Assembly (NCBI RefSeq): GCF_002909255.1
Contig: NZ_PIOB01000013.1
Span: 1-64,000, forward strand
Direction of reading: 5' to 3'
Source of the DNA: Arenibacter hampyeongensis
Lineage (GTDB): Bacteria > Bacteroidota > Bacteroidia > Flavobacteriales > Flavobacteriaceae
DNA: 64,000 bases
Part shown: piece after piece, positions 42,441 to 57,900 of the stretch
Numbering within the stretch: the first letter of the stretch is position 1
Layout of the letters: each line of letters opens with the position of its first letter
Position numbers and translations under genes: made by a program
Notes under the pieces: generated by a model
Seen by the model: the letters and a program-made list of their open reading frames with translations, nothing else
Told to the model about the DNA's origin: nothing
The model's database searches: none

Positions 42441-42746
42441 TTATAAATGTCTGATAAAATCCATTCTTTCGCCTAAAACGCGGATTATGAAAATTCCATT
42501 ATTAATCCTGTTATAAAAGATTACATGCGATTTATACCGGTATCGAAGTAGCAAGGTTTCATTCCCATGCAGGTAGAACCTTCCCATTTCTGGCCTGTCG
42601 GTCAATTCTTGAAAACAGGTAATAAGACCATTCTTATAAACACGAGCTTGGTTAACTCCAAAATTTTCAATGGTATATTCTGCAATTTTTTCAAGGTCGG
42701 ATTCTGCACTTTTACTAAGAAGGTATTTAGCCATTCTTTTTGGCAT
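42441..42746 (-). CDS. parE: RelE/ParE-family toxin
   Basis: The 101-residue protein has the ParE pattern: YLLSKSAESDLEKIAEYTIENFGVNQA at the start, RPEMGRFYLHGNETLLLRYRYKSHVIFYN in the middle, and VLGERMDFIRHL at the end. ParE toxins poison DNA gyrase; RelE relatives cleave mRNA. The start overlaps the 3' end of the antitoxin gene by 20 bases. The neighbour's ParD-type antitoxin supports ParE over RelE. Confidence 0.88.
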   Translation of the reverse strand: MPKRMAKYLLSKSAESDLEKIAEYTIENFGVNQARVYKNGLITCFQELTDRPEMGRFYLHGNETLLLRYRYKSHVIFYNRINNGIFIIRVLGERMDFIRHL

Positions 42747-42981
42747 ATTTCAATTCGGCATCCTTCCAGATATCATCGACACTTTTATCGCTTACACCAC
42801 TTGCTAAGCCCTCATCAAGCGCCATTTCAAGTGCTATTAGGTCTTGTTGAGTGGACTGATGGGTTCTGACCAAATGTCTTATATATTCACTATCGTTGGT
42901 GAAGTCGCCTTTTTCAATCTGCTTCTTAATCCATTCATCCTGTTGCTCTGTAAAAGTTATTGATTTTCTAATTACCCCCAT
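42727..42981 (-). CDS. parD: ParD-type ribbon-helix-helix antitoxin
   Basis: The 84-residue protein fits ParD: a ribbon-helix-helix N-terminus (RKSITFTEQQDEWIKKQIEKGDFTNDSEYIRHLVR) followed by a helical tail that binds the toxin. It precedes the ParE-like gene with a 20-base overlap, so translation is coupled. It would also bind the promoter of the pair, in the 200 bases to its right (42982-43179). Confidence 0.88.
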   Translation of the reverse strand: MGVIRKSITFTEQQDEWIKKQIEKGDFTNDSEYIRHLVRTHQSTQQDLIALEMALDEGLASGVSDKSVDDIWKDAELKYAKKNG

Positions 42982-43179: not shown

Positions 43180-46155
43180 TTAGTAAAGTTTTTCTTCTAA
43201 CGCATCCCTCCATTGAATAAAACCCTTACTATCATTAGAATAATCGTGGATAATTCGGCTAAAGTTTACGGGTTGAGATTCCAAATAAAACTGCCTGCCC
43301 TGATTTCTAATTGTATTCAAAGCCGAATCGACAGAAGCTAGATGTTCCTTAAAGGATGGGTTATTTTTGTTGAAATGCCAAATGTAAGTCGCTTCTTCAG
43401 TATCCAAAGTTTCCAAAATCACATGGAATTGGTGATTGCCCAACAACAAGAAAACAAAGGAAAATGGTTGAAGCACAAATCGAAGCTTTAAAATCGCGTG
43501 TGCATGATTGTCGGCCAGAAAGCGAAGCTGGCGAAAATGTTTTACACTTCTCTTTGAAAGGACTTCCTCCAACAATTCTTTTTCCGATGGATAAAGTGCT
43601 TGTAGTCTTTCTTTATCCTGTACAATATCGGATTCATCCTCAGAGTTTGATTTTTTACTAAAAAAACTTTTCTCTAAGAGCCTGAATCTTACACTTTCCA
43701 AGACTTCACGGTTTATCCTTTCCAAGTCTCTGGAAGTTGCCAATTGTGCAACTAAAACATTGTTTTCAAATTCAGCGGAAACTGTTATTTCTACGGTTTT
43801 GGAATCCATTACTTTAACAAAATACGGCTTAAGCACCTCAAACTCCGGACGTATATAATCATTCTCAATCTCAAATTCTAATTCTTTTTGTAGCTTGGAA
43901 CTTTTGTGGGTAAATGCAATTGTACCGAAACGGAAATAGAGCTGCTCGATAGGTACTTTTATAGTTGCCGTCATTGAACTACTTGCTTGTGTCTTGGGAA
44001 TGGCGTCGGGGGTATCGTCAAATAAGGTAGCCTGTCTGTCCAGATTTCGGTAATAGGTGTTTCTTTTGAGAAAAAGGCGATTAAGATATTCAATCTTATG
44101 ATCCCTGTAATCATAAATCAATGGGGCGATTTCGGAACGTTGTACCCTTCCAATATATTGGATCAGTTTTCCTTTAAAAGAAAAGGGATATACCAAAAAA
44201 AGACAGCTCGCATTTTGCAGATCGGTGCCTTCTCCAAAGTACTGTCCTGTGGTAATTAAAATTTGATAATTTCCTTTGTTAAGGATTTTCCATTTTAAAT
44301 TTCTTTCACTTTCGGAATCTTCTCCGCTTAATGCAATAACCTCGAATTTTTGTTTTAAAAACTGATATAGCGTGGTAATATGTTCTTTTCGTTCTGTGAT
44401 TACGACCACATGTTTGCCTGCATTCACTTCTGAAGTAATATCGTCAACTATTCTTTTGTTTCGATCGGAATCATGTACCAGAACTTTTGACAAGGTTTCG
44501 AACGTATCCGTTTTTGAATTAAAGGGAACTTCCAAGTTTGTATTCCTTACGATAATCCGTGCCTTCTTAAAGGTTTCTATGTCCTGCGGCTTGATGTCTG
44601 TTATAAGTTCGCCCAAATAGGCAAAAATCAGTTTACCGTCGCTATTTTTTCTGAAAGGGGTGGCAGTTAGACCATACTGGAAATAGGGGTGAAGTTTGGA
44701 AATAGTGGAAGCATAGGATTGGGCAGGAATGTGATGACATTCATCGATGATTATGGTTTTAAATTTCTCAAGTATTTCAGGAGTGTCTATTTTTTTGGAC
44801 AAACTTTGGATCATTGCTATTGTAATTTGCTTTCCTATTTTTGCTTTTCCCTGTCCTATTTTCCCAATTGCACTTTTGGGTATTTTCAAGAAAGCTTCTA
44901 TACGTTCTATCCATTGGTCTAAAAGCTGCTTTCTGTGTACGACTATTAATGCTGGTTGGCATTTATCAGCAATTATTTTTAGTCCAATTATTGTTTTTCC
45001 AGATCCGGGAGGTGCGGTAATTACGCCAAAATCTTTTTTGGAAACAGCAGAAAGAACGGTTTTCTGATGCTCCAGCAGTTCTGTGCCGAAAGTAAAATGT
45101 GTGTCATTGGATTTTTTTCTTTTATCCTCAAATTCGAAATCAATTTTTTGTTTGTTACAAAACCGCAGTAATTGTCCAACAGCCCCTCTCGGAAGAAGAA
45201 CTTCATTTTTCGATTCGGAAACAAGATTGAAATATCTATCGGTACTCCACGTTGTTCTTCCTATCTTTTTCTTTATGAAATAGTCGGGATTGGCCACGTT
45301 GAATGTATCCTTTATAAAATTAACCAATGGCGTGGTCAACCCGGTCTTATTGATTCGGATTTCGTTATCCAAACGGATGACAAGTGTATCGCCGGAAAAA
45401 GAGTTTTCCAATTCGTCCGCATCGTTTTTAACGATTGAACGATACAATTCATCAAGTTCGGCGGTTTTTATCTTTTTAATTTTCTTTAATAAACTCCATT
45501 GATTCTCATAAGGAACAAGCGTGTTGGGGTCGATAAAACAACTATTGCCTTCCTCTACGTTCGGTTTATACAATGGCAGGGCTATAAGGTTGCCCAAACC
45601 CTTTCCCGTAAGAAAATCCTGATTGGGGAACAACCTATCAAAACTTGAAGTCTTATCGAATATGGAAAAGGTTCCACTTTCTTCGAGCAACTGTTTAAAA
45701 ACTAATCTACTTTTTTTAGCGGGATAGGGTGTTTCAAAAAATATCCAAACATGTCCGCCGTTTCCAGAACGGGAACGCTCTAAATATGCCGGTATATTGT
45801 TGGACTCACAAACTGAGATAAAATTTTTGCATTCCTGTTGCCAGTTTTCCTTATCAAAATCCGCGGCTATAAACCAGGAGGTATTGTCTTTTAGCAAAGG
45901 GTAAACTCCAATCAAATGTTCGCCTTCTAAATGTTTAAAAACTTGATTGTCGTTTAAAGGCAAAAAAGATTTTTCGGTAAAATCTTTAAATGTTCCCCCA
46001 TTGGTTTTATGTAGCCTATATCGGTAGGGGTCGTAAAAGTAGGCGGGCATATAGCCACTTTTGTTTCCTTTCTCCCATCGAATGGCAAAAACATCATCCC
46101 TTCCTCTGAATAGGGACTTAAACAATTGAATATGTTCTTTATTTTCCGATTCCAA
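43180..46155 (-). CDS. AEP primase-SF2 helicase fusion (TOTE-type conflict protein)
   Basis: The 991-residue protein joins an archaeo-eukaryotic primase-like domain (about residues 20-200) to a superfamily 2 helicase. The primase part shows the DxD pair (Asp99, Asp101 in AADFDK) and SGNGGHVW with His135. The helicase has Walker A APPGSGKT (381-388), DECHH (471-475), TATPF, and the late FGEGTD and QYIGRVQR motifs. A C-terminal region of about 280 residues follows. Similar single proteins are annotated with the TOTE conflict-system primase domain. Here it is a lone gene with no neighbour on its strand, divergent from AbiE by about 500 bases. A DNA-repair role is the alternative. Confidence 0.8.
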   Translation of the reverse strand: MESENKEHIQLFKSLFRGRDDVFAIRWEKGNKSGYMPAYFYDPYRYRLHKTNGGTFKDFTEKSFLPLNDNQVFKHLEGEHLIGVYPLLKDNTSWFIAADFDKENWQQECKNFISVCESNNIPAYLERSRSGNGGHVWIFFETPYPAKKSRLVFKQLLEESGTFSIFDKTSSFDRLFPNQDFLTGKGLGNLIALPLYKPNVEEGNSCFIDPNTLVPYENQWSLLKKIKKIKTAELDELYRSIVKNDADELENSFSGDTLVIRLDNEIRINKTGLTTPLVNFIKDTFNVANPDYFIKKKIGRTTWSTDRYFNLVSESKNEVLLPRGAVGQLLRFCNKQKIDFEFEDKRKKSNDTHFTFGTELLEHQKTVLSAVSKKDFGVITAPPGSGKTIIGLKIIADKCQPALIVVHRKQLLDQWIERIEAFLKIPKSAIGKIGQGKAKIGKQITIAMIQSLSKKIDTPEILEKFKTIIIDECHHIPAQSYASTISKLHPYFQYGLTATPFRKNSDGKLIFAYLGELITDIKPQDIETFKKARIIVRNTNLEVPFNSKTDTFETLSKVLVHDSDRNKRIVDDITSEVNAGKHVVVITERKEHITTLYQFLKQKFEVIALSGEDSESERNLKWKILNKGNYQILITTGQYFGEGTDLQNASCLFLVYPFSFKGKLIQYIGRVQRSEIAPLIYDYRDHKIEYLNRLFLKRNTYYRNLDRQATLFDDTPDAIPKTQASSSMTATIKVPIEQLYFRFGTIAFTHKSSKLQKELEFEIENDYIRPEFEVLKPYFVKVMDSKTVEITVSAEFENNVLVAQLATSRDLERINREVLESVRFRLLEKSFFSKKSNSEDESDIVQDKERLQALYPSEKELLEEVLSKRSVKHFRQLRFLADNHAHAILKLRFVLQPFSFVFLLLGNHQFHVILETLDTEEATYIWHFNKNNPSFKEHLASVDSALNTIRNQGRQFYLESQPVNFSRIIHDYSNDSKGFIQWRDALEEKLY

Positions 46156-46469
46156 GGCTATTATTGTTACTTTGCAATTGGAGTAAAAATAGCAATAAAT
46201 TAGTGATTATAATTTGGGTCGTTGTAGTGCTAACTGTGTATAGGCAAGATAACTGCTTGGAGCGTTTTTTTGCACTCCATGCGTTTATGCGCGGTGCTTA
46301 GGATGTTAGAAAACCGTAGGTTTTTCAACTTCCATAGGAACATGGAATTGTAATGCGAAAGCTCTTATACTATTCGTATCAAACAAGCGTCAAATAAGCT
46401 ATTGTCCATACATGTTGACTTTAACGGGACAGCCATCAAATAAGATTGGGAAATATCTTTACTTTAAAT

Positions 46470-46498
46470 GTCAAGTTTTTTGCGCAAAAAAACTTGAC
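46470..46498. promoter_or_regulatory. Upstream palindrome (operator candidate for abiE)
   Basis: GTCAAGTTTTTT (46470-46481) and AAAAAACTTGAC (46487-46498) form a 12-bp perfect inverted repeat with a GCGCA centre. The left arm shares ATGTCnAGTTTTTT with the palindrome at 46599. Confidence 0.55.
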
Positions 46499-46598
46499 CT
46501 GTTGACCGTTTAGTAATGTTTCGGAAGAAAGAATGGAACAGCTAGGTTACGAATGCACTAAGCAATACTGCAACTAAAGTTATCAAGACTTATTTAAA

Positions 46599-46630
46599 AT
46601 GTCCAGTTTTTTAACTAATAAACTGGACAT
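46599..46630. promoter_or_regulatory. Promoter-proximal palindrome (operator candidate for abiE)
   Basis: ATGTCCAGTTT (46599-46609) and AAACTGGACAT (46620-46630) form an 11-bp perfect inverted repeat with a 10-base centre. It ends 7 bases before the -7 box at 46637, so a protein bound here would block the promoter. AbiEi antitoxins studied elsewhere repress their own operon through inverted repeats. Confidence 0.65.
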
Positions 46631-46636
46631 ATTGAA

Positions 46637-46644
46637 TATCTTTG
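46637..46644 (+). promoter_or_regulatory. -7 box of the abiE promoter
   Basis: TATCTTTG matches the Bacteroidota -7 consensus TAnnTTTG exactly and lies 16 bases ahead of the abiEi ATG. The transcript would therefore start close to, or almost at, the start codon. The -33 region coincides with the palindrome at 46599. Confidence 0.6.
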
Positions 46645-46659
46645 TATAAACAGTTTCCA

Positions 46660-47391
46660 ATGAAAGCCTCTGAATATATAGAAGATAAGATTAATAAGTT
46701 GCCCAAAGGTTATGTATTCACCTATATGGATTTTATGAACGAGGTGGATAGGAGAGAAGCCATCATTAAACATCTGAATAGAATGGCTACTTCCGGTAAG
46801 ATTAATAAACTATCTAAAGGTAAATACTTCAAGCCGCAAGAAACTGTATTCGGTACTTTGTTGCCTGATCAACACCAAATTGTAAAAGATTTGTTGGAGG
46901 AAGACGGCAAACTAGTAGGGTATATTACGGGGTATAGCGTTTATAATTCCCTAGGACTTACCACGCAAGTAAGCAGCACGATACAGATAGGCAAACGTGA
47001 GATACGACCTTCTTTTAAAAGAGGCCGTTTTAGAATTTCGTTCATCAAACAAAAGAATACTATCAATAAGGAAAATATTCCACTATTACGATTGTTGGAT
47101 GCCATACGTTATATTAAGAAAATACCTGATACCACCGTTGAAAAAAGTTGTATTCGATTTATGGCATTATTGCGCGAATTGAAAACTAGCGAACATATAA
47201 AACTTATAAAATTGGCCTTTAAATATTCCCCCGCAACCAGAGCTTTATTGGGTGCATTGCTAAGAGGGATTAATTGCAAGGCAGAGACTGAAATAAGAGA
47301 CCTTCAAGATAGTTTAAACCCAATAACGGTTTATGATTTTGATATTTCTAAAAAAGTGTTGTCAAATGCTAAATACTGGAATATAAAATGA
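46660..47391 (+). CDS. AbiEi-like antitoxin (DUF6088 family)
   Basis: The 243-residue product has an N-terminal winged helix-turn-helix (about residues 3-60: YVFTYMDFMNEVDRREAIIKHLNRM then KINKLSKGKYFKP) and an AbiEi-type C-terminal domain. I chose ATG 46660; a TTG start 18 bases upstream overlaps the -7 box. It binds DNA and represses its own operon in the family's type IV toxin-antitoxin system. It overlaps the toxin gene by 4 bases (ATGA), so the two are translationally coupled. Confidence 0.85.
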   Translation: MKASEYIEDKINKLPKGYVFTYMDFMNEVDRREAIIKHLNRMATSGKINKLSKGKYFKPQETVFGTLLPDQHQIVKDLLEEDGKLVGYITGYSVYNSLGLTTQVSSTIQIGKREIRPSFKRGRFRISFIKQKNTINKENIPLLRLLDAIRYIKKIPDTTVEKSCIRFMALLRELKTSEHIKLIKLAFKYSPATRALLGALLRGINCKAETEIRDLQDSLNPITVYDFDISKKVLSNAKYWNIK

Positions 47392-48365
47392 AGCTGCACG
47401 AGAACGAACAACTTTTCAGACAAGCTGTGCAAGTAACAGCAGAACGGATGGGTATTTTAGATATCTATATCGAGAAGGATTATTGGGTATGCCATGCCCT
47501 AAAACTGATCTTTGATAGCACTATTAAAGATGAAGTCATATTTAAGGGAGGCACGGCTTTGTCAAAGTGTTATAAATTCATCGAACGTTTTTCTGAGGAT
47601 ATTGATTTAGTTGTAATACGAAGAGAAGAAGAGACAGGGAACCAATTAAAGGCTAAGCTCAAAAAAATAACTAAGGAGATAACTACACCATTCGTAGAAA
47701 TAGAAATGGAAGGGATTACCAATAAAATGGGAATGATTCGAAAGATAGCCTACAACTATCCCAAAATTTTTAAAGGAAATTATGGACAGGTAAGAGATGC
47801 CATTATCATAGAAGCAACTTGGCTGGGCTATTTTGAACCTTACACTAAGAGAGTCCTGAATACCTATATCTATGATATGATGAATGCCACCAACCAAACG
47901 ACATTGGCGGAAGAATATGACCTATTGCCTTTTGAAGCACTTGTATTGGATTCTCGAAGAACGTTTTGTGAAAAGATAATGAGTTTGGTTCGGTTCTCAC
48001 ATACGGAAAAACCAATTATCGACCTGAATGCTAAAATCAGGCATGTATATGATATCCATCAGCTACTGAAAGACGAAACGGTTCAACAGTTTTTTACTTC
48101 AGAAACTTTTGATAAGATGCTACTAAAAGTAGCCAGTGACGATGTACAAAGTTTTAAGAACAACAACGATTGGTTAAAGTACCACCCTAAAGAAGCATTG
48201 ATTTTCAACGAACCTGAAGAAGCTTGGAAACAACTTAAAGACACCTATCAGAATGACTTTCAGTTTTTGGTTTATGGGGAATTACCAGATGAGAAGGAAG
48301 TTTTGACCACGATTTTGAAAGTGGCCGAACGGTTGAATACGATTACGTGGATTATTACTTTTTAG
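47388..48365 (+). CDS. AbiEii/AbiGii-type nucleotidyltransferase toxin
   Basis: The 325-residue protein has the nucleotidyltransferase signature GGTALSK (54-60) followed by SEDIDL (69-74), the active-site pair of AbiEii toxins. Known AbiEii-family proteins transfer nucleotides, for example to tRNA acceptor ends, and cause bacteriostasis or abortive phage infection. A basic middle part and a helical C-terminus follow. It is the second gene of the AbiE operon; the third gene (48423) starts 57 bases later on the same strand. Confidence 0.9.
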   Translation: MKLHENEQLFRQAVQVTAERMGILDIYIEKDYWVCHALKLIFDSTIKDEVIFKGGTALSKCYKFIERFSEDIDLVVIRREEETGNQLKAKLKKITKEITTPFVEIEMEGITNKMGMIRKIAYNYPKIFKGNYGQVRDAIIIEATWLGYFEPYTKRVLNTYIYDMMNATNQTTLAEEYDLLPFEALVLDSRRTFCEKIMSLVRFSHTEKPIIDLNAKIRHVYDIHQLLKDETVQQFFTSETFDKMLLKVASDDVQSFKNNNDWLKYHPKEALIFNEPEEAWKQLKDTYQNDFQFLVYGELPDEKEVLTTILKVAERLNTITWIITF

Positions 48366-48422
48366 TATTGAGATATTTAAGAATTTATAATGTTCATGTA
48401 AAATTTATACTAATTCTGACAC

Positions 48423-51400
48423 ATGGAAATTAATGAAAACCAACAAAATATATATAACGGTTTAAAAAGTATAGGAGAAGAGATATCATCTTTTTACATG
48501 GATGCATTGGATATTCTTCATAGTGAAAACCTGAAATCAAAATCTTATCTCTTAGCGCATGTCGCACGGGAAATAGATGGTGGATTAAGAGATATTCTGG
48601 CGCCAATGGGTGCAAAGGAGAAAATGCTCAAAGAACCTTCACTTAAAGACCGGGGGAATGTTGTATCGATATTAGTGGCTCTAGATTTGCCTATCGATGA
48701 TAGTTTTGCCCAACAGTATATAAACGTTGCCACAAAATTTGTAAAGTATGCGCATCGGAGAGGCGCAACAAAATCACTTAGAGATCCAAAAGAAGTTATA
48801 CAGTTATGGTTTGATTATGAATTAATTCTTTTGAAGTTGCTAGGTAGTTTTATTAACCAATTAAAGCAAATTGAACGAATTGTCAGGTTTGAGAACCCTA
48901 CAAAACAAATCCTTGCAGCATTAAGGAACATCTTTAAAGACGAACAGAAGGAGAGACATTTTTATATTAGCCTTAAAAAAGTAAGTTGGCTAAAACCTTT
49001 ACATAACAGTGGCTTTTTCTCTCCTGAATATATATTGGATGAGGCCTTATGGAACCAAGCTGAATACTTAGAATTTATATCCCTAGAGATTAAAAAGGGT
49101 AATGTAGATGATAAAAACTCTGAAGTTTTAATAAAAATTGTACTTGAGATATGTAACTACTCTAAAAACATAAAAAAACTTGAAAATTACAGGATTTGGT
49201 ACTTTCTTCTAGATATACTAACAAATTTACCCAAAGATTACGTAACAAATAAAATAGTTGATTACATACCTGATTTCTTTAATACAAAATTTGAGAACAA
49301 CCTTCAAAGCGAATCAATTTTTAAGCTCATATATTCTTTTTTCGATAAAGAAGAAATAACTAATAAGGACAAGCAGAAAATTGAAAAATTAGTCAAATTA
49401 GTTTTTGAAATATCGGATAAGCAAATATTTAGAGATCGGTCAAGCTATGAAACTGGTAAGTATTCCCCTGTTATTAGGGCGTATAGATTAAAACAAGCTT
49501 GTGAGAATCCAGTTTTTTACTCAGGCGTTCCTAAATATTGCTCTAATAAGATTATTTATTTTATTGCCGATAATCTACTAATCTATTTGAAGGCCGAATA
49601 TATAAGTGAGTTCTGGATTAAAAGCATATTTCACATCGATGAAGTTGACAAACATTCATATTCCATTGAAACAATTTATTCAATATTCTTAAAAACTATA
49701 TGCGTAGAAATCTCTAAGCACTCTAAAACGCGAATAGAGGAAATAATATCTGCCTTTCTAAGTGATGCATATAATCATAAACACTTTATAAAACTTTCTT
49801 TGTTTCTGTTTGCAAAAACATGGAAAAATTCAAAACAAATCTTCTTTGATTTAATAAAAAATAATGATGAGAAAATGCTATTTTCTAATAATTTTTGGGG
49901 AGATGACCTTTATTTTTTGTTAGAAGAAATTGCTGATTCCTTAAACCTCAGGGAGGCCTCAATTATTGAAAAAATAATTGAGAATGGTTCTCAGGATAAA
50001 GACTATTATGATAAAAGTAAATACCTAGATGATTATAAGCTTCTGTGGTATTCAGCACTAAGTACAAATTCATTTTTTGAGAAAAAATATGAATTGCTTT
50101 CAAAGAGATTAGATAAGGACAAAAAGCAAATAAGACCAAGAGAACAGTGTAATGTCACTTTTGGAAGTACCTCTCCAATAAGTAAAAAGGAACTCAAAAC
50201 CATTTCAGTAAGTAATTTAGTTGGCATTTTAAAAACATTTGACCCTGAAAGAAGTTTCCGAGAGCCCTGTGTTGAGGGTTTGGCAAGTAACTTAAGTACT
50301 TTTATCAAAGAATCACCTCAAAAATTTTATGATGATTGTGATTTGTTTTTGCAAACGCCTTATAGATACATTTCAGAGATTTGTTACGCACTTGCTGATA
50401 GTTGGAAGAATGACGGTGAAATCAATTGGGAAGATGTTCTAAATTTTATTTACAAGTATATTAAACAGACTGAATTTGCTACAAATCACCTACAGTTAAA
50501 AAACGCATCATATAAACATGATCATTTAGATGTAGTCAAGAGTTTTTGTAGACTACTAAGTGCGGGGATGAGAAGAGATGAACAAGCCTTTGATGCTAAA
50601 TTATTGCCGATAGCTGAGAAAATTATATTTGTTTTTTTGGATAAATATATAAGCAATGAATTAGAGGACAAAGCAAAAGGAAAATTGGGTTCCGCCATGC
50701 ATGTCATTAACTCAACATCGGGAGTTATAATAGGCACATTATTCGATTTATCCTTAAGAAAGGCGCGGTTACAAAGTAATAGTTTGGAAGATAAAAGCCC
50801 AAGATGGGCAGATAAGGAAAAAGAAGCCTACGAGAAATTAATCAAAAAAAATATTCAGGAGTTCTATATGTATCTCGGCTGGCACAGAAACCAATTTTAT
50901 TTTTTAGATTATACCTGGACTAATAATCAATTACAGTCTATACCTTCAAAAAATAATCAAACTATTAAGTCATACTTTGGCGGCCATTTGATTGAATATC
51001 CAAATTCAAAATTTGAGTATGAAACATTTAAAGATGTTTACCTTAAGGCGATAAAGGAAGAGTGGAAAGTCGAGGATTCAACAATGCGAACTGACCCGTT
51101 GGAGGTTCATGCAACCATTTTTTACATTTTTGATTATGAAGATTTAAGAGAAGGAGAAATTCTAACTTATATTTTGAATCAAAAGAATATTCAGAAAATA
51201 AGAAGTATTGTTCACTCCTTATCATTTAAATATGACCAATATTTAGAAAATCAGGATGCCGGTGGTAAAAGCCTATTCAAGAGAAAGATTTTTAAAATTT
51301 GGAACTTTACCCTTGAAATACTAGAAGATAGCGCAGATCTCGAATCTAAAGATATGCCAACCTTATTTTATCTTATCAAATATATCGAAGAACTTAATGA

Positions 51401-51725
51401 GGAAAACTATGAGCTCATTATAAATACTTCAAAGTTCGCGAGGCATGGTAGGGATTTCGATGAACTAATTAAAAATCTAAATAGATTAAAATTACAAGGT
51501 GATGTTGTAGAAAGCAGCATTTATGCCTGTAACATTTTCATGGAATCAGTATTTAAGGATTTCTATTATGCCTCAATAATGCAGAAAGAGATTATCGAAT
51601 TTACTGAATCTATGTATCTCCTTGAAAATGAAAAACTCACAAACTATTCTAACAGGATTTGTAATGAGTTTGCCAAAAATGGACAGTATTTTTTAAGGAA
51701 TTTATATGAAAAGTATAATTCTTAA
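48423..51725 (+). CDS. Large uncharacterised protein (1100 residues) behind AbiEii
   Basis: I recognise no named family. The protein is soluble, mainly helical, with no signal peptide, no membrane span and no Walker or nuclease motif that I can see. An N-terminal block stands out as conserved-looking: LLAHVAREIDGGLRDIL (residues about 43-59) and KYAHRRG (108-114), in two helices, resembling HEPN-type domains only loosely. The remainder looks like a long array of helical repeats (lysine-, isoleucine- and leucine-rich), fitting a scaffold or sensor. The gene is visibly more AT-rich than its neighbours. It follows AbiEii after 57 bases with no terminator, so it may be cotranscribed with AbiE. 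A defence role is inferred from place only. Confidence 0.65.
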   Translation: MEINENQQNIYNGLKSIGEEISSFYMDALDILHSENLKSKSYLLAHVAREIDGGLRDILAPMGAKEKMLKEPSLKDRGNVVSILVALDLPIDDSFAQQYINVATKFVKYAHRRGATKSLRDPKEVIQLWFDYELILLKLLGSFINQLKQIERIVRFENPTKQILAALRNIFKDEQKERHFYISLKKVSWLKPLHNSGFFSPEYILDEALWNQAEYLEFISLEIKKGNVDDKNSEVLIKIVLEICNYSKNIKKLENYRIWYFLLDILTNLPKDYVTNKIVDYIPDFFNTKFENNLQSESIFKLIYSFFDKEEITNKDKQKIEKLVKLVFEISDKQIFRDRSSYETGKYSPVIRAYRLKQACENPVFYSGVPKYCSNKIIYFIADNLLIYLKAEYISEFWIKSIFHIDEVDKHSYSIETIYSIFLKTICVEISKHSKTRIEEIISAFLSDAYNHKHFIKLSLFLFAKTWKNSKQIFFDLIKNNDEKMLFSNNFWGDDLYFLLEEIADSLNLREASIIEKIIENGSQDKDYYDKSKYLDDYKLLWYSALSTNSFFEKKYELLSKRLDKDKKQIRPREQCNVTFGSTSPISKKELKTISVSNLVGILKTFDPERSFREPCVEGLASNLSTFIKESPQKFYDDCDLFLQTPYRYISEICYALADSWKNDGEINWEDVLNFIYKYIKQTEFATNHLQLKNASYKHDHLDVVKSFCRLLSAGMRRDEQAFDAKLLPIAEKIIFVFLDKYISNELEDKAKGKLGSAMHVINSTSGVIIGTLFDLSLRKARLQSNSLEDKSPRWADKEKEAYEKLIKKNIQEFYMYLGWHRNQFYFLDYTWTNNQLQSIPSKNNQTIKSYFGGHLIEYPNSKFEYETFKDVYLKAIKEEWKVEDSTMRTDPLEVHATIFYIFDYEDLREGEILTYILNQKNIQKIRSIVHSLSFKYDQYLENQDAGGKSLFKRKIFKIWNFTLEILEDSADLESKDMPTLFYLIKYIEELNEENYELIINTSKFARHGRDFDELIKNLNRLKLQGDVVESSIYACNIFMESVFKDFYYASIMQKEIIEFTESMYLLENEKLTNYSNRICNEFAKNGQYFLRNLYEKYNS

Positions 51726-51741
51726 TGGATAGAATTGCTGG

Positions 51742-51999
51742 CCCAAATCCTTACCCAAAAATTTTGCGCTTGGATTCTGTCCGATTTTTGTAGTATTCAG
51801 GCAGATAAACGTTAAGCAAAAATCGGATAGGGCGCAACCTACTTTTGATCTTGGTTTTTCTCTTTTCCGGACCATTCTAGAAACCCCTTATAAATATCAG
51901 GATGTTCCGTAAAATACCCTTTCAGCTCCGTTGAAATAACCGATTTTCCTTCTTCGAAAGCCTTCTCTCTTTCTTCCCCCAACTGTGCCACCTGATAGC
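51742..51999 (-). repeat. Imperfect direct repeat, copy 2 (mob 3' end)
   Basis: Intact copy of the repeat at 42054-42311. Its inverted repeat lies at 51780-51790 and 51817-51827, ending 12 bases downstream of the gene's stop codon, exactly as in copy 1. The stretch between the two copies (42312-51741) is the main cargo. Confidence 0.85.
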
Positions 52000-52303
52000 C
52001 CAAATAGGCAGAAATGGACAGGGATAGGATAAGGACCAAACTGACCATGAACAATAGCCATTCGGGGATGATTTGCGACTTCTTCAATTGTTCCTCTATT
52101 TTGATTGTTCTTACATCCTGCTCTTGAAAATGAACTTCCTGCGTTTTATTGAGTTCCTTCAGGTCATTTCTAATCGAGGAAATATCCTGTACCGTTTCAG
52201 AACCGGTGAGTTCCTTGCTCAACGTCTCCAGTTTCATCAACATCTGTTTCAATCCTTCCAATTCGTCCGTCAACAGTTCCGTAATCTCATCTAGCTTTGC
52301 CAT
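51839..52303 (-). CDS. Coiled-coil membrane protein of the mobilization operon
   Basis: The 154-residue protein has an N-terminal coiled coil (about residues 5-78, LTDELEGLKQMLMKLETLSK), one membrane span (82-104, WLLFMVSLVLILSLSISAYLGY) and a short charged C-terminal tail. Proteins of this layout follow the relaxase gene in Bacteroidota mobilizable elements; function is unknown, perhaps docking the relaxosome at the membrane. It lies 18 bases downstream of the relaxase gene. A broken copy of its 3' end is at 42152. Confidence 0.75.
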   Translation of the reverse strand: MAKLDEITELLTDELEGLKQMLMKLETLSKELTGSETVQDISSIRNDLKELNKTQEVHFQEQDVRTIKIEEQLKKSQIIPEWLLFMVSLVLILSLSISAYLGYQVAQLGEEREKAFEEGKSVISTELKGYFTEHPDIYKGFLEWSGKEKNQDQK

Positions 52304-52321
52304 ATTGATTTTGTTTAAATA

Positions 52322-53191
52322 TTAATATCCTATTTCCATTCCTACACCTTTTTGAATCGTTTGTTTGATGACTGATTTAGCCAGTTTTATAGCGATATTC
52401 CCACTTAGCTGAGTGGCCTTTCCCATGAGGCTTACAGTATTGCTTTGGCCTTGCAGGAAGCTCCTCTCCACATGTTTTTCTATTCCCATCACCAATCTGC
52501 TGCCGGACATGGAACGGTGTACCTCGCTTCCTTTTAGGTTGTGGCCTTTGTATTGGAACCGGAACCCTTGCAGCTGATTGGACTTATTGATGCTGGGGAT
52601 GACTACTACGTTTTTTACCTTCATAAGCTTGATATAGTTATCCAGGTCTTTGGGGCGTTGTTCGTTCATCACTTTTTCATGAACATTTTTAATCTCCAGT
52701 CTTATATTCAGTAACTGTTCCAATCTTTCCAGTTGAACTTCCCGTACCGTGGTTAGCCCCATTTTCTCCGCTACCCGTTCCGCGGCTAGCTGACTCCTCT
52801 TCCCGATAAAACTGTCGTTATAGGCAGTGCCGTTAAAATCGATCCGGTTTACGTACACATGAACATGCGTATGTGGCTGATTCCTATGAACAAAGGCGAT
52901 GGCCTGATGTTCCTGTAATTTCATTTCCTTGAGAAACTTTGCAGTCATCTCGTTGAGCTCTTTGGCTTTTAGCTGTTTTCCATCTTCAATCGTAGGGCTG
53001 ATGACAAAACTCAACGTATTCTTTTTGCATTGATAGTTCTGGGATTGGATGATGTTGAACTCTTTGGTAATCTGGTTTGGGGTTTGCCCAGCCACGTGAT
53101 TGGAGTATACGACCTCTGCTTGTTTCTCCTTGTTCCAGCCATAACTCATGGAATTTCCGGTATGCGATATTGATTTTCCTATGCCGATCAT
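52322..53191 (-). CDS. Relaxase (MobA-type, relaxase/mobilization nuclease family)
   Basis: The 289-residue protein has the relaxase three-histidine motif HTHVHVYVNRID (His107, His109, His111) and an upstream tyrosine-containing N-terminus (Tyr17) for the transesterification. The remaining region is basic. Relaxases nick the element's origin of transfer and lead the strand into the recipient using another element's conjugation machinery. The size is short compared with full MobA proteins because no primase domain is attached. The ATG overlaps the mobC stop codon by 4 bases. Confidence 0.92.
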   Translation of the reverse strand: MIGIGKSISHTGNSMSYGWNKEKQAEVVYSNHVAGQTPNQITKEFNIIQSQNYQCKKNTLSFVISPTIEDGKQLKAKELNEMTAKFLKEMKLQEHQAIAFVHRNQPHTHVHVYVNRIDFNGTAYNDSFIGKRSQLAAERVAEKMGLTTVREVQLERLEQLLNIRLEIKNVHEKVMNEQRPKDLDNYIKLMKVKNVVVIPSINKSNQLQGFRFQYKGHNLKGSEVHRSMSGSRLVMGIEKHVERSFLQGQSNTVSLMGKATQLSGNIAIKLAKSVIKQTIQKGVGMEIGY

Positions 53192-53484
53192 TTTTTGAAA
53201 TTATAAAGATGGTTCTGTATTTCTTCTGCTAGCTTTGTCACCTCGGCCGTCAGTTTGGGATCCCGTTTTCGGTACATGTTCCCGATCAATTTAAAGTTGG
53301 TCCCGTACTTGGCCAACATCTTATAAAGGTCTATTTGCTCCTCTGTTAACCGCTCAATGATCTTATCCCCTAAGGCGGCACGCCTACAATATTCGCTCAC
53401 GCTCAGACCGCTCTTTTTGGCCTTTATCCTGAGCAACTTCTTCTCGAAGAGGGAACATCGAAATTTAACATAGGTACGTTTCAT
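53188..53484 (-). CDS. MobC-like relaxosome accessory protein
   Basis: The 98-residue basic protein has a ribbon-helix-helix-like start (TYVKFRCSLFEKKLLRIKAKKSGLSVSEYCRRAALG) followed by helices (AKYGTNFKLIGNMYRK), the common MobC layout. It aids the relaxase at the origin of transfer, which most likely lies upstream of it in the 53485-53645 gap. It is the first gene of the mobilization operon. Confidence 0.85.
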   Translation of the reverse strand: MKRTYVKFRCSLFEKKLLRIKAKKSGLSVSEYCRRAALGDKIIERLTEEQIDLYKMLAKYGTNFKLIGNMYRKRDPKLTAEVTKLAEEIQNHLYNFKK

Positions 53485-53645
53485 TTTTTACGTCTTTGCG
53501 ACCTTCGGGAGCAAAGCAAGATTGTCTTTGTGGCAACAAAGACACATCTTGAATTACATCACTATCAGATTATTTTATTTATGCGTTAAAATTGTATATA
53601 TTAATAGTTATTTCATTTTCGAGATTAAATATCATCATCATCAGG

Positions 53646-54509
53646 TCATTTCTTTTGAGCGGTCCACCATCCATTTACGTCTTTAAAATTTTCGTATAAT
53701 TTGGATCTATCCGTACATTTTGGCTGTTGTTGCATCATTAGGTTAACGGCATTTCTTCCTGCACTATCATTGTCCAGATAAAGCATAATCGATTCATAGG
53801 GCTCAAACATCACAAACGTTTTTTCTATAAAGCCCAAGGAGTTTAATATCAAAAGATCATTCGTTTCCATTAGATGTTTGTCCCGCTCCAATAGGCTCAA
53901 CATATCGAACATTCCCTCTGTAACGATCAGCCTACTGTTTCCGTTCTGGAGGTGAGTGACGTCTTTTGGGGAGCTGGAATTCTTATAATATTTGTTCCGC
54001 AATTCCCAACCTCCGGAGTTGTTCGCTAAGCCTAGAGCGAAATACATCTTGTCCTTAAACTTATAGTGAACTTCCTTGCAAAGTTTTCTGGCAGTCAATA
54101 TGGAAATCCCTCTTTTCATTACATATTCCCCTAGCGCAAAATGGCCCAGTTCCTTAATAAGTTTCACTTCGATCTTATCCTGTTTATCCTCTTCTAAAAG
54201 TGGCGGCTGAAAAGAAAAAGAGATTTGTCCGTTTTGTAGCCAATCCAATGTTTCCTTTACCGATGAGTTGTTGACCAGGCAAATCAGATCGATTACATTT
54301 CCCCCTTTCCCTATTCCGTGGTCGTACCATCGGTTCAGTTTCTTGGACACCTTAAAAGAGGCTTGGGTTTCTGAGCGGAACGGACTCAGGAACCAAGCTT
54401 CTTTATTAGATTCCTTTGTTGGAAAGTGCCCGAGTTTTGCCAACGCTTTTTCGATGGGAAAAGCTCTGGCTCTTTCACACGTTAGTTTATTGGTTCTTTC
54501 TTTTTTCAT
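53646..54509 (-). CDS. Toprim-domain DNA primase of the island
   Basis: The 287-residue protein has an N-terminal half that aligns with CHC2-type primases (AWFLSPFRSETQASFKV and GKGGNVIDLICLV) but without the CHC2 zinc cysteines, and a C-terminal toprim fold (VTEGMFDMLSLLE and LDNDSAGRNAVN). It probably primes replication of the excised element. The gene lies next to the VapE helicase gene in most Bacteroidota mobilizable islands. It is separated from it by a repeat-rich gap. Confidence 0.87.
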   Translation of the reverse strand: MKKERTNKLTCERARAFPIEKALAKLGHFPTKESNKEAWFLSPFRSETQASFKVSKKLNRWYDHGIGKGGNVIDLICLVNNSSVKETLDWLQNGQISFSFQPPLLEEDKQDKIEVKLIKELGHFALGEYVMKRGISILTARKLCKEVHYKFKDKMYFALGLANNSGGWELRNKYYKNSSSPKDVTHLQNGNSRLIVTEGMFDMLSLLERDKHLMETNDLLILNSLGFIEKTFVMFEPYESIMLYLDNDSAGRNAVNLMMQQQPKCTDRSKLYENFKDVNGWWTAQKK

Positions 54510-54537
54510 CAGTTAATTCTTTTTTTCGTTTTTCTCT

Positions 54538-54722
54538 TACCTTCCTACCTAAGTCCCTGTTTATAGGGGTTTAGAGCTTAGGTGGGTTCTTTTTTGATCT
54601 TACCCATCTTACCCTAATAGGTAGGATAGGTAATACCTAGGTAACTAGTGGTTAATGTATCTTACCTTATGGTAGCTTCCGCAGTTGGGGCGGTCATGGT
54701 CCGTTAGGTAAGTAGGTAGGTA
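54538..54722. repeat. Cluster of TAGGT/ACCTA repeats (candidate origin or control region)
   Basis: About 185 bases upstream of the primase gene contain at least eight TAGGT or ACCTA cores in both orientations, for example TACCTTCCTACCTAA at 54538-54552, TAGGTAGGATAGGTAATACC at 54619-54638 and TTAGGTAAGTAGGTAGGTA at 54704-54722, with a palindrome ACCTAGGT between. The rest of the island has nothing similar. It may be an iteron-type origin or an operator for the primase operon. Confidence 0.45.
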
Positions 54723-54736
54723 CAATGGCACTTTTT

Positions 54737-55930
54737 CTACGATTCTACTTCCCAGGGACTTTTGGCAAATACCGATTTGGCCAGATACCCATACACCTGG
54801 CGTTTGGGATGTTTCACCCGTTGGAAATTGAATCCGGAAAGCGCACGCCCAAGGTTTATCTGGTTCAGTCTTACGTTCAAGCTACTCAGCTTTACCAATA
54901 CATCGGAGGCGGTCACGAAGTCGTTGACATCATTCGACTTTTCAAAGTATTTGGAAACCAGTTCCTCCTCGGTAGTCAATTTGGTATATTTTTTATTCCG
55001 TTCTTCGTTCTCCATAATATCCGTTAGCGTAAGTTCTGGATTGAAGCCTGGATCAGTATAGGCGAGGTGGTAGGCCTGTATCCACACGTTCTTGATTTCC
55101 ACTTCCTTGGAGTAGGAGAAATCTATTTTATCCATTAGCTCAAAGCACAACCACCTTACCGATCCAGTCTCATCGTTTAGAAATGAGGACATATTGGTAG
55201 AGCCCAAAAACGAACAGATTCTGGGCAGGGTAGTGTTCTTTCGGTCATAGGGCAGGCGTTCGTTGATGAAGGTCTTGGAAAAGAATGCTTTCAGTGCGTT
55301 CACGTCTTTCTTGGTAAGCACGGCCAGCTCATCCAAGTTGTAAAGGAAGTTCCGGCACAATTGGATCCTGGCATCCTTATCATTGCTGATGTCCTCCGCC
55401 ATATAATCGGCTAATTCTGGGGGACAGATAAACCGGCACCAGGTAGATTTCCCCGAGCTCTGTCCCTTATGGCTGATGATCAGGGCCTGCTTGTTGAAGT
55501 AGCCCGGTTCCAGTGCACATTTTATGGCTCGGACCAGCCATTTTTTAAAATGGTAAAGAAAAGCCTCATCATCATAGGTAGGGACGTAGGAAGCCAGTTT
55601 TTTGATATGGTCTTCTCCGTCCCATTTAGGGAGAGATTGGAAGTACGCTTTAATAGGGTTGTATTTGGGAATGAGTTCCGACCGAATCAGAATTTCCAAT
55701 TTTCCGGTACTGATATCGACACCTGCTTTGGCAAGTTCAATAATCAGGGAATTGAGGTTTAGATAGGACCATTCAGCTCGTTTCTTGAACGATATCTGGA
55801 AATCATGGGATATCTCATTGTACATAATATCATACTTCCCTTCCAAGTATTCAATGGTATAATCGTAGATCGTCTTTTTCTTGGCATCCTTTACCTTGTA
55901 AAGTTGACCCCGATGGTCACCGACTATCAT
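54737..55930 (-). CDS. VapE/VirE-family superfamily 3-like helicase
   Basis: The 397-residue protein matches the VirE (VapE) domain: Walker A SSGKSTWCRFI (about residue 155), LYNLDELAVLTKKDVNALKAFFS for Walker B, then LPRICSFLGSTNMSSFLND for the sensor. It is a replication helicase that works with the primase of the next gene. Its start overlaps the HTH gene by 4 bases, so the two are coupled. Confidence 0.9.
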   Translation of the reverse strand: MIVGDHRGQLYKVKDAKKKTIYDYTIEYLEGKYDIMYNEISHDFQISFKKRAEWSYLNLNSLIIELAKAGVDISTGKLEILIRSELIPKYNPIKAYFQSLPKWDGEDHIKKLASYVPTYDDEAFLYHFKKWLVRAIKCALEPGYFNKQALIISHKGQSSGKSTWCRFICPPELADYMAEDISNDKDARIQLCRNFLYNLDELAVLTKKDVNALKAFFSKTFINERLPYDRKNTTLPRICSFLGSTNMSSFLNDETGSVRWLCFELMDKIDFSYSKEVEIKNVWIQAYHLAYTDPGFNPELTLTDIMENEERNKKYTKLTTEEELVSKYFEKSNDVNDFVTASDVLVKLSSLNVRLNQINLGRALSGFNFQRVKHPKRQVYGYLAKSVFAKSPWEVES

Positions 55931-56214
55931 GGCCGTCTATTTTTAAGGGTATGTCTCAGGGCCTCGTTCTCAATATCGGCCTTGGATTTTCTACTGTTCT
56001 GTAGCAGCCAATTATTCAGCTTTCTCTTTTCAAAGAAAATCATTTTTCCGTTGGGCTTGGAGTGGGGGATAGTCCCGGAGGAAGTCAGTTTGTAAAGATA
56101 GCTTCTCGATATTCCGGTGTAGTCACAGGTTTCCTCAAAAGTCAACACCTCTTTATGGCAGGTTAACAGTTTTTCCAAGCGATCTAAGCGATCAAAAATT
56201 AAAATAGTGTCCAT
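55927..56214 (-). CDS. Helix-turn-helix protein, excisionase-like
   Basis: The 95-residue protein has a MerR/excisionase-type HTH in the middle (LTFEETCDYTGISRSYLYKLTSSGTIPHSKPNGKMIFFEKRKLNNWL), the layout of Xis and DNA-binding domain 17 proteins. It would bind near the attachment site to direct excision, or start the replication operon. An 18-bp palindrome lies 28 bases upstream of its ATG. It begins the VapE transcript. Confidence 0.85.
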   Translation of the reverse strand: MDTILIFDRLDRLEKLLTCHKEVLTFEETCDYTGISRSYLYKLTSSGTIPHSKPNGKMIFFEKRKLNNWLLQNSRKSKADIENEALRHTLKNRRP

Positions 56215-56241
56215 TTGTTTCTCTTTTAAGAATAAGAAATG

Positions 56242-56259
56242 AACAAAAGCGCTTTTGTT
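56242..56259. promoter_or_regulatory. 18-bp palindrome upstream of the excisionase-like gene
   Basis: AACAAAAGCGCTTTTGTT is a perfect palindrome and lies 28 bases upstream of the excisionase-like ATG on the minus strand, overlapping where its promoter should be. It is a good operator candidate, possibly for the protein itself. Confidence 0.55.
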
Positions 56260-56403
56260 TACCTTCTATAGGTTTGTTAAAATAAAAGTAGAAAATAGGT
56301 GGGCTGAAAGCCATGAGAAACACAAATAGTTATCCACAACTATCTGTATTACAGCGCTATGTGTTATATGGAGCCAATTGATAGCAAAGGAATTTTCATT
56401 TAA

Positions 56404-56433
56404 TTTTATTTGATATCATAAAACATCAAATGG
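56404..56433 (+). repeat. Copy A of an integrase-flanking inverted repeat
   Basis: On the plus strand it begins TTTTATTTGATATCATA and, after 7 differing bases, ends AAATGG. The same 30-base layout occurs on the minus strand at 57986-58015, next to the right core. The integrase gene is enclosed by the two copies. Confidence 0.6.
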
Positions 56434-56694
56434 CACCGAATGTTATACTGGTCAAATTGGTGTTTTTAGGTGAAAAACAGAGTTATTAACAATTGAAAAG
56501 GAGGGAGTTGGAGATTTGGAGGTGGATAAAGGGCAGTTTTTACTTATTTTGACTCTTCTAAATTCAATTTCTTAATCCTAATTTTTTGAAATAATCTTCT
56601 GGATAAATAAAATTTCGAAGGTTTTAGACTGGAATTTTAAACTATCCTATTTTTGGGGGAGCCTACATAGCTATGTAAAAAATCTAAACCACCA

Positions 56695-57900
56695 CTACAA
56701 CAAATCCAAATTCAACTTGGGGAGTAAGTTTGCGGCTTCTTTCATTTTCTTGTCAATGATTTTTGCATAAATCTCCGTAGTTCTTATTTCACGGTGCCCT
56801 AGGCGTTTGGAAACCGTATAGATATCAGCACCATTTTCCAATAATAGTACCGCATTGGTATGTCTAGCGGAATGAAAGGTGATGTGCTTGTTAATGCCGG
56901 CAAACATGCACCAACGGAGGAGTTGGAGGTTCATATGGGCACTATAACGAAGGCCTTTGAATACTCGATCATTGGGACCTCTGCGTTCCCCAAGTAGCGT
57001 CCTGGCCTGTTGTGAGATATACAAGTATTCTACTCCTTCGGTTTTCTTTTGCTTAAACACGATTCGGAAGATAAGATCACTGGAATTGTCAGCACCTTCT
57101 TCCCGTACCTCCAACCATTTTAATTTATTGACATCCGACCATCTTATGCCAGTTAGGGATGAAAATAAAAAGGCTCGTTTAAGAAGTGGGATAGGGCAGG
57201 GGGTCTGTGACAATTTTTGAAGTTCATCAGATGTGAGGTATTCTCGAGTAGATTCCCCCATTGTAAAACCTTTGACTTTTTTAATGAGGTTTTCTTTTAG
57301 GTAGCCTTCATCGAAAGCTGCATTAAGGCAAGCCTTAAATTTGTTAAAATAGGTATGTTTGGTGTTTTGGGAAAGGTTCTTACTACTTTTTGTTACGGCT
57401 ACAGTATCCAGGTATTTTTTAAACCCTTTAATGAAATCAACATCTAAATCGTTTAGAGTGATGTGGGCAGGACAATAGGCTTCTATGTGCTTTTGTGCGG
57501 CATCCCAGTTGTCATAATTGCCTTTGGTCTGGTAGCGTTCCTCTTTCTTCTGGACGTAAAAGTCTAATAAACTAACTTTTCCTTTTGTGTCGTTTTTAAG
57601 GTGATACTTCCCCTGATAGACTTCAGCCTTTCTAATGGCCAGTATTTGTTCGGCCAATTCAAGATGTTCCTGATTCTTTTTCTTTTCATCCGTCGTTTTG
57701 GGATCTTCTATTAAATAGAGTTGTAGGTATTCGTAATTTCTAAGGTGTTTAACCTTTCCATTACTAAGAGTTTTAATTCCTTTATAGAACTCTAAATAAA
57801 GGCTCTGTTTCCCAGTTTTTAATTTCTTCTTCCTTAAGTGAACTTTCATCATAGCGACACATTTTTTGTGTCTCGTCTTATACAAAGGAGAATGCGACAC
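56695..57900 (-). CDS. Tyrosine integrase of the island
   Basis: The 401-residue protein has a phage-integrase SAM-like N-terminal domain (about 100-200) and a catalytic domain with GIRWSDVNKLKW (Arg I), HSARH (His343, Arg346), GH (His369) and nucleophile Tyr378 in EIYAKI. The true start may be at residue 17 or 18 (MKVHLRKKK), where conserved arm-binding sequence begins. It lies directly next to mnmE, convergent in neither direction but on the same strand, so it is transcribed away from mnmE. Its two flanks carry related inverted repeats. It is the probable enzyme for the mnmE core. Confidence 0.92.
   Translation of the reverse strand: MSHSPLYKTRHKKCVAMMKVHLRKKKLKTGKQSLYLEFYKGIKTLSNGKVKHLRNYEYLQLYLIEDPKTTDEKKKNQEHLELAEQILAIRKAEVYQGKYHLKNDTKGKVSLLDFYVQKKEERYQTKGNYDNWDAAQKHIEAYCPAHITLNDLDVDFIKGFKKYLDTVAVTKSSKNLSQNTKHTYFNKFKACLNAAFDEGYLKENLIKKVKGFTMGESTREYLTSDELQKLSQTPCPIPLLKRAFLFSSLTGIRWSDVNKLKWLEVREEGADNSSDLIFRIVFKQKKTEGVEYLYISQQARTLLGERRGPNDRVFKGLRYSAHMNLQLLRWCMFAGINKHITFHSARHTNAVLLLENGADIYTVSKRLGHREIRTTEIYAKIIDKKMKEAANLLPKLNLDLL

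Follow-up and report, generated by a model that had tools for sequence, protein, structure and literature searches.

The abiE promoter in the window (the whole 64-kb stretch of DNA analyzed) is probably governed by the proximal of two related palindromes, P2, which comparison with other loci of the same AbiEi class supports as the AbiEi operator. The distal palindrome, P1, is by its half-sites not a second copy of P2; it carries the half-site of another AbiEi class and no recognizable promoter, and comparison supports it, in outline, as an AbiEi-type site under constraint. The reading of P1 preferred here, held at a probability of about one half, is that of an auxiliary, mismatched AbiEi site beside the primary operator P2.

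The abiE locus and its two palindromes

The features considered are as follows.

43180 to 46155, minus strand: gene for a TOTE-type primase-helicase, divergent from abiE; not linked to P1 in most other carriers
46246 to 46352, plus strand: dispersed two-hairpin element, lying between P1 and the divergent gene and outside the operator
46470 to 46498, no strand: P1, distal palindrome of 29 bp with GTCAAG (A-type) half-sites
46599 to 46630, no strand: P2, proximal palindrome with GTCCAG (C-type) half-sites; putative AbiEi operator
46637 to 46644, plus strand: TATCTTTG, -7 box of the putative abiE promoter, 8 nt after the P2 core
46660 to 47391, plus strand: abiEi (DUF6088 / AbiEi antitoxin), 243 aa
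47388 to 48365, plus strand: abiEii, nucleotidyltransferase toxin; overlaps abiEi by ATGA

The genes abiEi and abiEii form one overlapping operon, as in AbiE type IV toxin-antitoxin systems. AbiEii matched PF08843 (E 9.9e-31) and the PADLOC AbiEii model (E 4.8e-105), as a nucleotidyltransferase toxin should, and AbiEi matched the PADLOC AbiEi model (E 4.2e-54) and DUF6088 (E 1.1e-12). From membership in a type IV system, AbiEii is predicted to be toxic and AbiEi to neutralize it. Sequence searches with AbiEi retrieved no solved AbiEi structure, only two designed proteins (E 0.19 and 0.21). A first structure model, against which the crystal structure of Streptococcus agalactiae AbiEi (6y8q) ranked 35th (E 4.6), was too poor for use (pLDDT 63). 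The best PDB match of a second model (pLDDT 80) was 6y8q (E 7.3e-4), followed by Rv2827c (1zel; E 0.013). AbiEi is thereby predicted to have an N-terminal winged-helix DNA-binding domain, whose helix 32-45 was taken as the putative recognition helix.

The first-pass annotation had described two related palindromes ahead of abiEi, sharing an arm and lying about 130 bases apart. Coordinates and arm were confirmed; the common arm, ATGTCNAGTTTTTT, begins at 46468 and 46599, so that the matching stretches start 131 bp apart. P1 reads GTCAAGTTTTTT-GCGCA-AAAAAACTTGAC, with perfect 12-bp arms, and P2 reads ATGTCCAGTTTTTTAACTAATAAACTGGACAT, with a 28-bp core at 46601-46628; the two differ by one base pair per half-site (GTCAAG versus GTCCAG). 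The P1 of the window is the sole 29-bp site, all other sites seen being 28 bp long, and its odd center is due to one extra A. Within the 5.43-Mb genome, ATGTCNAGTTTTTT has two exact matches, both at the abiE locus; with one mismatch it occurs at 24 places, compared with 41 for the reversed control, and is thus not enriched. Ten Markov-1 copies of the window contained no perfect palindrome (arm at least 12, spacer at most 6) and, in total, one with an arm of at least 14 and at most one mismatch. Palindromes as good as P1 and P2 are, by this comparison, not due to chance; the real window holds four and five, respectively, and therefore others exist besides these two. The promoter element reported next to the second palindrome was found as well: TATCTTTG, 6 nt past P2, is the only exact match, on either strand of 46156-46660, to TAnnTTTG, the -7 consensus in the available text of PMC9723704.

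Operator classes across AbiEi loci

AbiEi relatives were drawn from genome contigs, genomes, plasmids, and viral contigs (loci are labeled L, genomes G). In the viral contigs, a search with a single protein found no relative and a search with an alignment found five. Operators were sought in 78 distinct loci, 76 in the main count and the viral loci L137 and L139; they comprise 45 loci of class C, that of the window, 25 with an A-type site, and eight with neither site (L019, L067, L068, L122, L123, L158, L137, and L139). Class C was split from the remaining loci by a tree, which gave the assignment for 31 of the 45; later loci were placed by helix and identity, and helix or identity also served for L020 and L054 (truncated), L140 (short frame), L119 (in the tree too), and L142-L151. 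Class B denotes the AbiEi class with an A-type promoter operator (GTCAAG half-site). Removed as duplicates were L061 and L062 (of L036 and L040), L009-L012 (of the window, L035, L034, and L047), L141 (twin of L140), and L125-L134. Homologues of ∼200 aa, among which nine of nine looked at lacked such a palindrome, lie outside the count, as do the fragments L024, L030, L031, L079, and L080, loci L159-L169, the phage hits H31 and H32, and all but six of 82 plasmid records.

All 45 C-class loci had a proximal C-type site, the 28-bp palindrome GTCCAGT-N14-ACTGGAC (41 exact, four with one or two mismatches of 14), beginning at -46 to -76 relative to the abiEi start used. None of the other 33 loci had a proximal C-type site; 25 of them carried GTCAAGT-N14-ACTTGAC instead (22 exact, three with one mismatch), and eight had neither site within two mismatches (the best match in L137 had three, and L139 had no match). 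The position of the -7 box differed along with the site: it followed the C-type site after 5-8 nt, exactly in 31 of the 45 loci and with one mismatch in eight more, and the proximal A-type site after 15-19 nt, exactly in 16 of 25 and with one mismatch in three more. The putative recognition helix was mostly [K/R]EA[I/V]IK[H/A]LNRM in C-type loci and xAA[A/T]K.[I/L][E/S]R in A-type loci. The helix search pattern fitted 42 of 44 C-type and 21 of 24 A-type proteins, with two Cytophagales genes on the A-type side departing from it. Among loci fetched after the rule had been seen, the class-matching site was present at 10 of 10 C-class genes and at six of seven others, the remaining one being without a site; of the five viral AbiEi loci, likewise fetched afterward, three had the class-matching site and two had none within two mismatches.

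P2 is an inverted repeat that overlaps the promoter and matches the class of its antitoxin. The earlier suggestion of an AbiEi repressor site at the abiE promoter is thus supported by comparison, P2 being the probable operator, with a counterpart in 45 of 45 loci of its class. Together, these patterns offer a testable specificity code for a large, little-studied AbiEi branch (DUF6088): helices resembling EA[I/V]IK.LNR tend toward GTCCAG and those resembling AA.K..[E/S]R toward GTCAAG, and the -7 box moves from ∼8 to ∼17 nt past the site between the classes. AbiEi operator work was found for Streptococcus and Mycobacterium (PMC7319586 and PMC11062541). No account of DUF6088 operators in Bacteroidota was found in the literature searched, of which the part behind subscription was thinly covered, which leaves absence unproven. 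A related AbiEi with 43% identity (L019, genome G105) has neither site type; by eye, its promoter region contains TGTAACGT..ACGTTACA instead, perhaps a third operator class.

Distribution of P1-type sites

P1 reads GTCAAGTTTTTTGCGCAAAAAACTTGAC in L034, L037, L038, L040, and L043, and all 28 bases agree with the class-B abiE promoter operators of L029 and L070. With one base different it occurs in L042 and L063, and these seven loci and the window make up the eight intact carriers. P1 is decayed in L045 and L046 (four and six differences) and absent from six near relatives (L035, L036, L039, L041, L044, and L047), and is therefore dispensable. Exact A-type half-sites also lie 45 and 55 bp upstream of the own operator in two further C-class loci, L016 and L148. 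Altogether, 12 of the 45 C-class loci have a distal A-type site, apparently spanning three separate C-class lineages (L148 lies off the tree); in shuffled 700-bp stretches, a distal-type match with up to two mismatches arose in 14 of 1140. The mirror case was seen once, in the class-B locus L138, where the A-type site belonging to the gene lies at -57 and an exact C-type site lies farther out, at -132. L065 has another A-type-like site upstream, which is degenerate, falls below the threshold, and was left out of the count.

No exact -7 box was present within 40 nt after any of the 12 distal A-type sites, nor one with a single mismatch at 15-19 nt, and P1, judged by this motif, is without a recognizable promoter.

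P1 with up to three mismatches (a pattern that misses the window's own 29-bp copy) was found in six of 397 family genomes and not in the control; two matches were class-B promoters, two were distal sites of C-class genes, and two had no full-length AbiEi nearby. Searching 239 family genomes for exact A-type sites gave 10 places, one in each of 10 genomes (reversed control, two places); seven of these are at AbiEi genes and one is at the remnant L173, and the last two are a site within another ORF and an orphan. The exact C-type site occurred at 15 places in 13 of the 239 genomes (control, one place), with 11 at AbiEi genes or broken copies, three elsewhere between genes, and one in coding sequence. 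Viral contigs contained no exact P1. In genome G193, two perfect C-type palindromes (L187 and L191) with similar left flanks lie 1.1 kb apart at gene ends, with abiE not nearby; they may be terminators or sites of another repressor.

Constraint on P1

Among the eight intact carriers, P1 differs at 0-2 of 28 bases (the window being counted minus its extra A), whereas fourfold sites of abiEi in the same carriers differ by 18-51% in every pair except the near-twins window and L034, which differ at 5% of such sites and are uninformative. Under equal rates and shared descent, which the comparison assumes, this gives P values of 2.8e-2 to 7e-8 per pair, the pairs not being independent. Mean pairwise identity of the P1 columns was 97% over seven carriers (omitting L034, L045, and L046) and 92% over all 10, as against 42% and 53% for the 60 columns on either side in the same seven. 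The alignment-column and fourfold comparisons were preferred, as gap-tolerant flank identities (0.69-0.99) are inflated by free gaps. In the intact carriers, P1 is conserved about as well as P2 (26-28 versus 25-28 of 28). Of the proposal that both palindromes are AbiEi sites, one part stands, in that P1 is probably of AbiEi type and is constrained relative to fourfold sites; the kinship with P2 has to be amended, as the half-site is that of the other class.

P1 could be a relic, that is, the operator of an older abiE of the other class whose genes the present module replaced. Its identity, in five carriers, with the class-B promoter operators of L029 and L070 would fit, as would the C-type site upstream of a class-B gene in L138, the left-over A-type site before what is, by eye, a 13-codon abiEi remnant (L173 in G218), the A-type site without abiEi nearby in G170, and the C-type sites that precede fragmentary abiEi genes in G053, G214, and G302. 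However, P1 is not followed by the class-B promoter box, and it changes far more slowly than the fourfold sites of the same gene and than its own flanks; because of this slowness, such an origin without present function is doubtful.

Conservation of the sequence itself, beyond pairing alone, also speaks against an intrinsic terminator or other RNA hairpin. A stem of 12-14 bp could form in RNA, and some C-type palindromes away from abiE lie at gene ends, one with a T-run (L179). P1 itself is not followed by a T-run on either strand, has no terminator-like match, and has no Rfam match near the cut-off. The terminator or known-RNA reading of P1 was rejected on these grounds, and a hairpin function of any kind is highly improbable.

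Which AbiEi might bind P1

The carrier genomes (eight intact, two decayed) were searched with one class-B protein as query (E <= 0.001). The C-class gene was recovered, other matches were short and at most 32% identical, and class-B AbiEi was found in none of the 10, of which the metagenome assemblies may be incomplete. A co-resident class-B AbiEi as the keeper of P1 was therefore discarded, as none was found in 10 of 10 carrier genomes. For the same reason, the resident AbiEi is the likeliest binder of P1, probably with weaker affinity, as the graded Rv2827c sites would suggest.

On the preferred reading, AbiEi would bind both halves of the 28-bp P2 through its N-terminal winged helix, cover the DNA just upstream of the -7 box, and thereby repress abiEi-abiEii. 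P1 would serve as an additional AbiEi-type operator that lacks a promoter and is maintained at the other class's consensus; the resident AbiEi would bind it more weakly than P2 and fill it only when the antitoxin is abundant. Once filled, it might deepen or buffer repression, or block read-through from upstream, as graded-affinity sites could. Sequence comparison shows that operator type follows AbiEi class, that P1 is constrained, and that no promoter is recognizable there; binding to P2 and P1, the weaker affinity for P1, and any effect on expression are what we infer from it. A precedent exists in that Rv2827c binds two repeat sets with graded affinities, according to the available text of PMC7319586. 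Several points count against an auxiliary role. P1 is an ideal A-type site, including the GCGC center, not a worn C-type site, and as such would suit a class-B repressor better than the resident AbiEi; it is dispensable, six relatives being without it, and the window's copy has an extra base; and neither S. agalactiae AbiEi nor Rv2827c bound the promoter of the other, as described in the same text.

The perfection of P1, which matches the class-B consensus center included, can also be read as a cross-class site, kept for the AbiEi of another abiE system that reaches the cell by plasmid or island; one system would then sense the other or silence it. The arrangement recurs in three apparently separate C-class lineages and in one mirror form. 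The absence of class-B AbiEi from the 10 carrier genomes, with the caveat on metagenome assemblies given above, weakens this reading, as does the fact that the two classes share only one of 397 family genomes (G018), in which the C-class gene has no distal A-type site. It is unlikely that Bacteroidota abiE systems repeatedly gained and kept a perfect operator of the rival class so that toxin-antitoxin modules could sense one another across classes; in such a scheme, a single base pair in each half-site and a few residues of the recognition helix would determine specificity. The general question raised by a conserved, promoterless other-class operator upstream of some systems is whether it serves mismatched self-tuning or whether the modules listen to each other.

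Relation to known AbiEi systems

Comparisons with known systems draw on the available text of PMC7319586 and, below, PMC11062541. As in S. agalactiae, the window encodes AbiEi and AbiEii together, with a DNA-binding domain predicted at the N terminus of the antitoxin and inverted repeats at the promoter. Two 23-bp repeats with 3 bp between them, the arrangement in S. agalactiae, were not found; the window instead has a single compact 28-bp palindrome with two short half-sites, and a distant site of the other class (PMC7319586). Two sets of sites upstream of an AbiEi-family gene are shared with Rv2827c-Rv2826c of Mycobacterium tuberculosis, where they are graded in affinity; Rv2827c has four tandem repeats within 131 bp of the start codon, all bound by the same protein (PMC7319586). 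Unlike these, the far site in the window matches the consensus of another AbiEi class than the resident one, which is its putative binder.

Upstream genes, spacing, and mobile context

P1 had also been proposed to control the divergent primase-helicase. The gene upstream of P1 in the eight intact carriers is a primase-helicase in two and a same-strand tyrosine-recombinase-like gene in five, the latter with 30% identity to the window's Pfam-supported integrase; L037 has neither, its nearest ORF of at least 90 aa stopping 887 bp before abiEi. The upstream gene is thus unlike that of the window in six of eight, and linkage of P1 to the helicase gene is lacking. The gap between the divergent gene and abiEi contains no exact minus-strand -7 box and three with one mismatch. 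Because the upstream gene varies and this box is missing, P1 goes with abiE, not with the helicase, and the proposed control of the divergent gene was rejected.

Among intact carriers of the window's clade, P1 and P2 are 131-132 or 194-197 bp apart, two groups that are ∼six helical turns apart and differ by a hairpin; these distances leave 0.48-0.76 of a turn at 10.5 bp. The distance is 155 bp where P1 is decayed, and 45, 55, and 75 bp outside the clade, and overall there is no common helical phase between distal and proximal sites. DNA looping between the two sites, the other role suggested for the wide spacing, would be compatible with these distances; because the spacing varies, looping at a fixed phase is neither supported nor contradicted by them. 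A looping repressor would have to bind both sites, whose half-sites are those of different AbiEi classes. Many relatives (L036-L042, L044-L047, L053, and L063; e.g., L042:3848-3900) carry a third hairpin, placed either between P1 and P2 or ahead of P2; it was not found in the window, L034, L035, or L043. Its arms of 19-25 bp are perfect or nearly so, its sequence varies between most loci, no T-run is present, and its right end falls 99-102 nt before the start of abiEi. Hairpins of this kind also occur in L064 and in the class-B locus L076.

Between 43180 and 57900, the window has genes for an integrase (56698-57900), VapE-like and Toprim proteins, a relaxase, and a Dsr1-like protein, beside mnmE, and this neighborhood suggests that abiE is carried by a mobilizable element. 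P1 might then tie AbiEi to integration or transfer of the element and not to abiE transcription. A tyrosine-recombinase-like gene ends upstream of P1 on the same strand in five of the eight intact carriers, and the two-hairpin element, elsewhere beside mobilization-like genes, adjoins P1 in four of four carriers searched. In S. suis, AbiEi stabilizes its ICE, ICESsuHN105, and binds an IR-like site at the oriT; there, AbiEi is likewise encoded on a mobile element and has operator-like sites beyond its own promoter, at oriT and at another promoter; the extra site of the window lies upstream of abiE itself (available text of PMC11062541). However, P1 is just as well conserved where a recombinase-like gene is missing nearby (L037) or where the adjacent gene is a helicase (L034), and 7-9 kb around five recombinase-abiE loci lacked an att-like direct repeat of at least 15 nt. 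A role in mobility is quite improbable, and P1 as an auxiliary AbiEi site remains the preferred reading.

The two-hairpin element shows some compensatory changes (six of 27 pairs) and was present in seven of seven genomes searched; six of nine other copies examined lie just past the end of one gene type. These genes presumably resemble the BfmA/BtgA mobilization genes, and the element could be an element end, an oriT, or a terminator. The defense cargo of the apparent mobilizable element (43180-57900) comprises the TOTE primase-helicase, abiE, and the Dsr1-like protein, and a ParE/ParD-type toxin-antitoxin pair lies close to the abiE locus, at 42441-42981.
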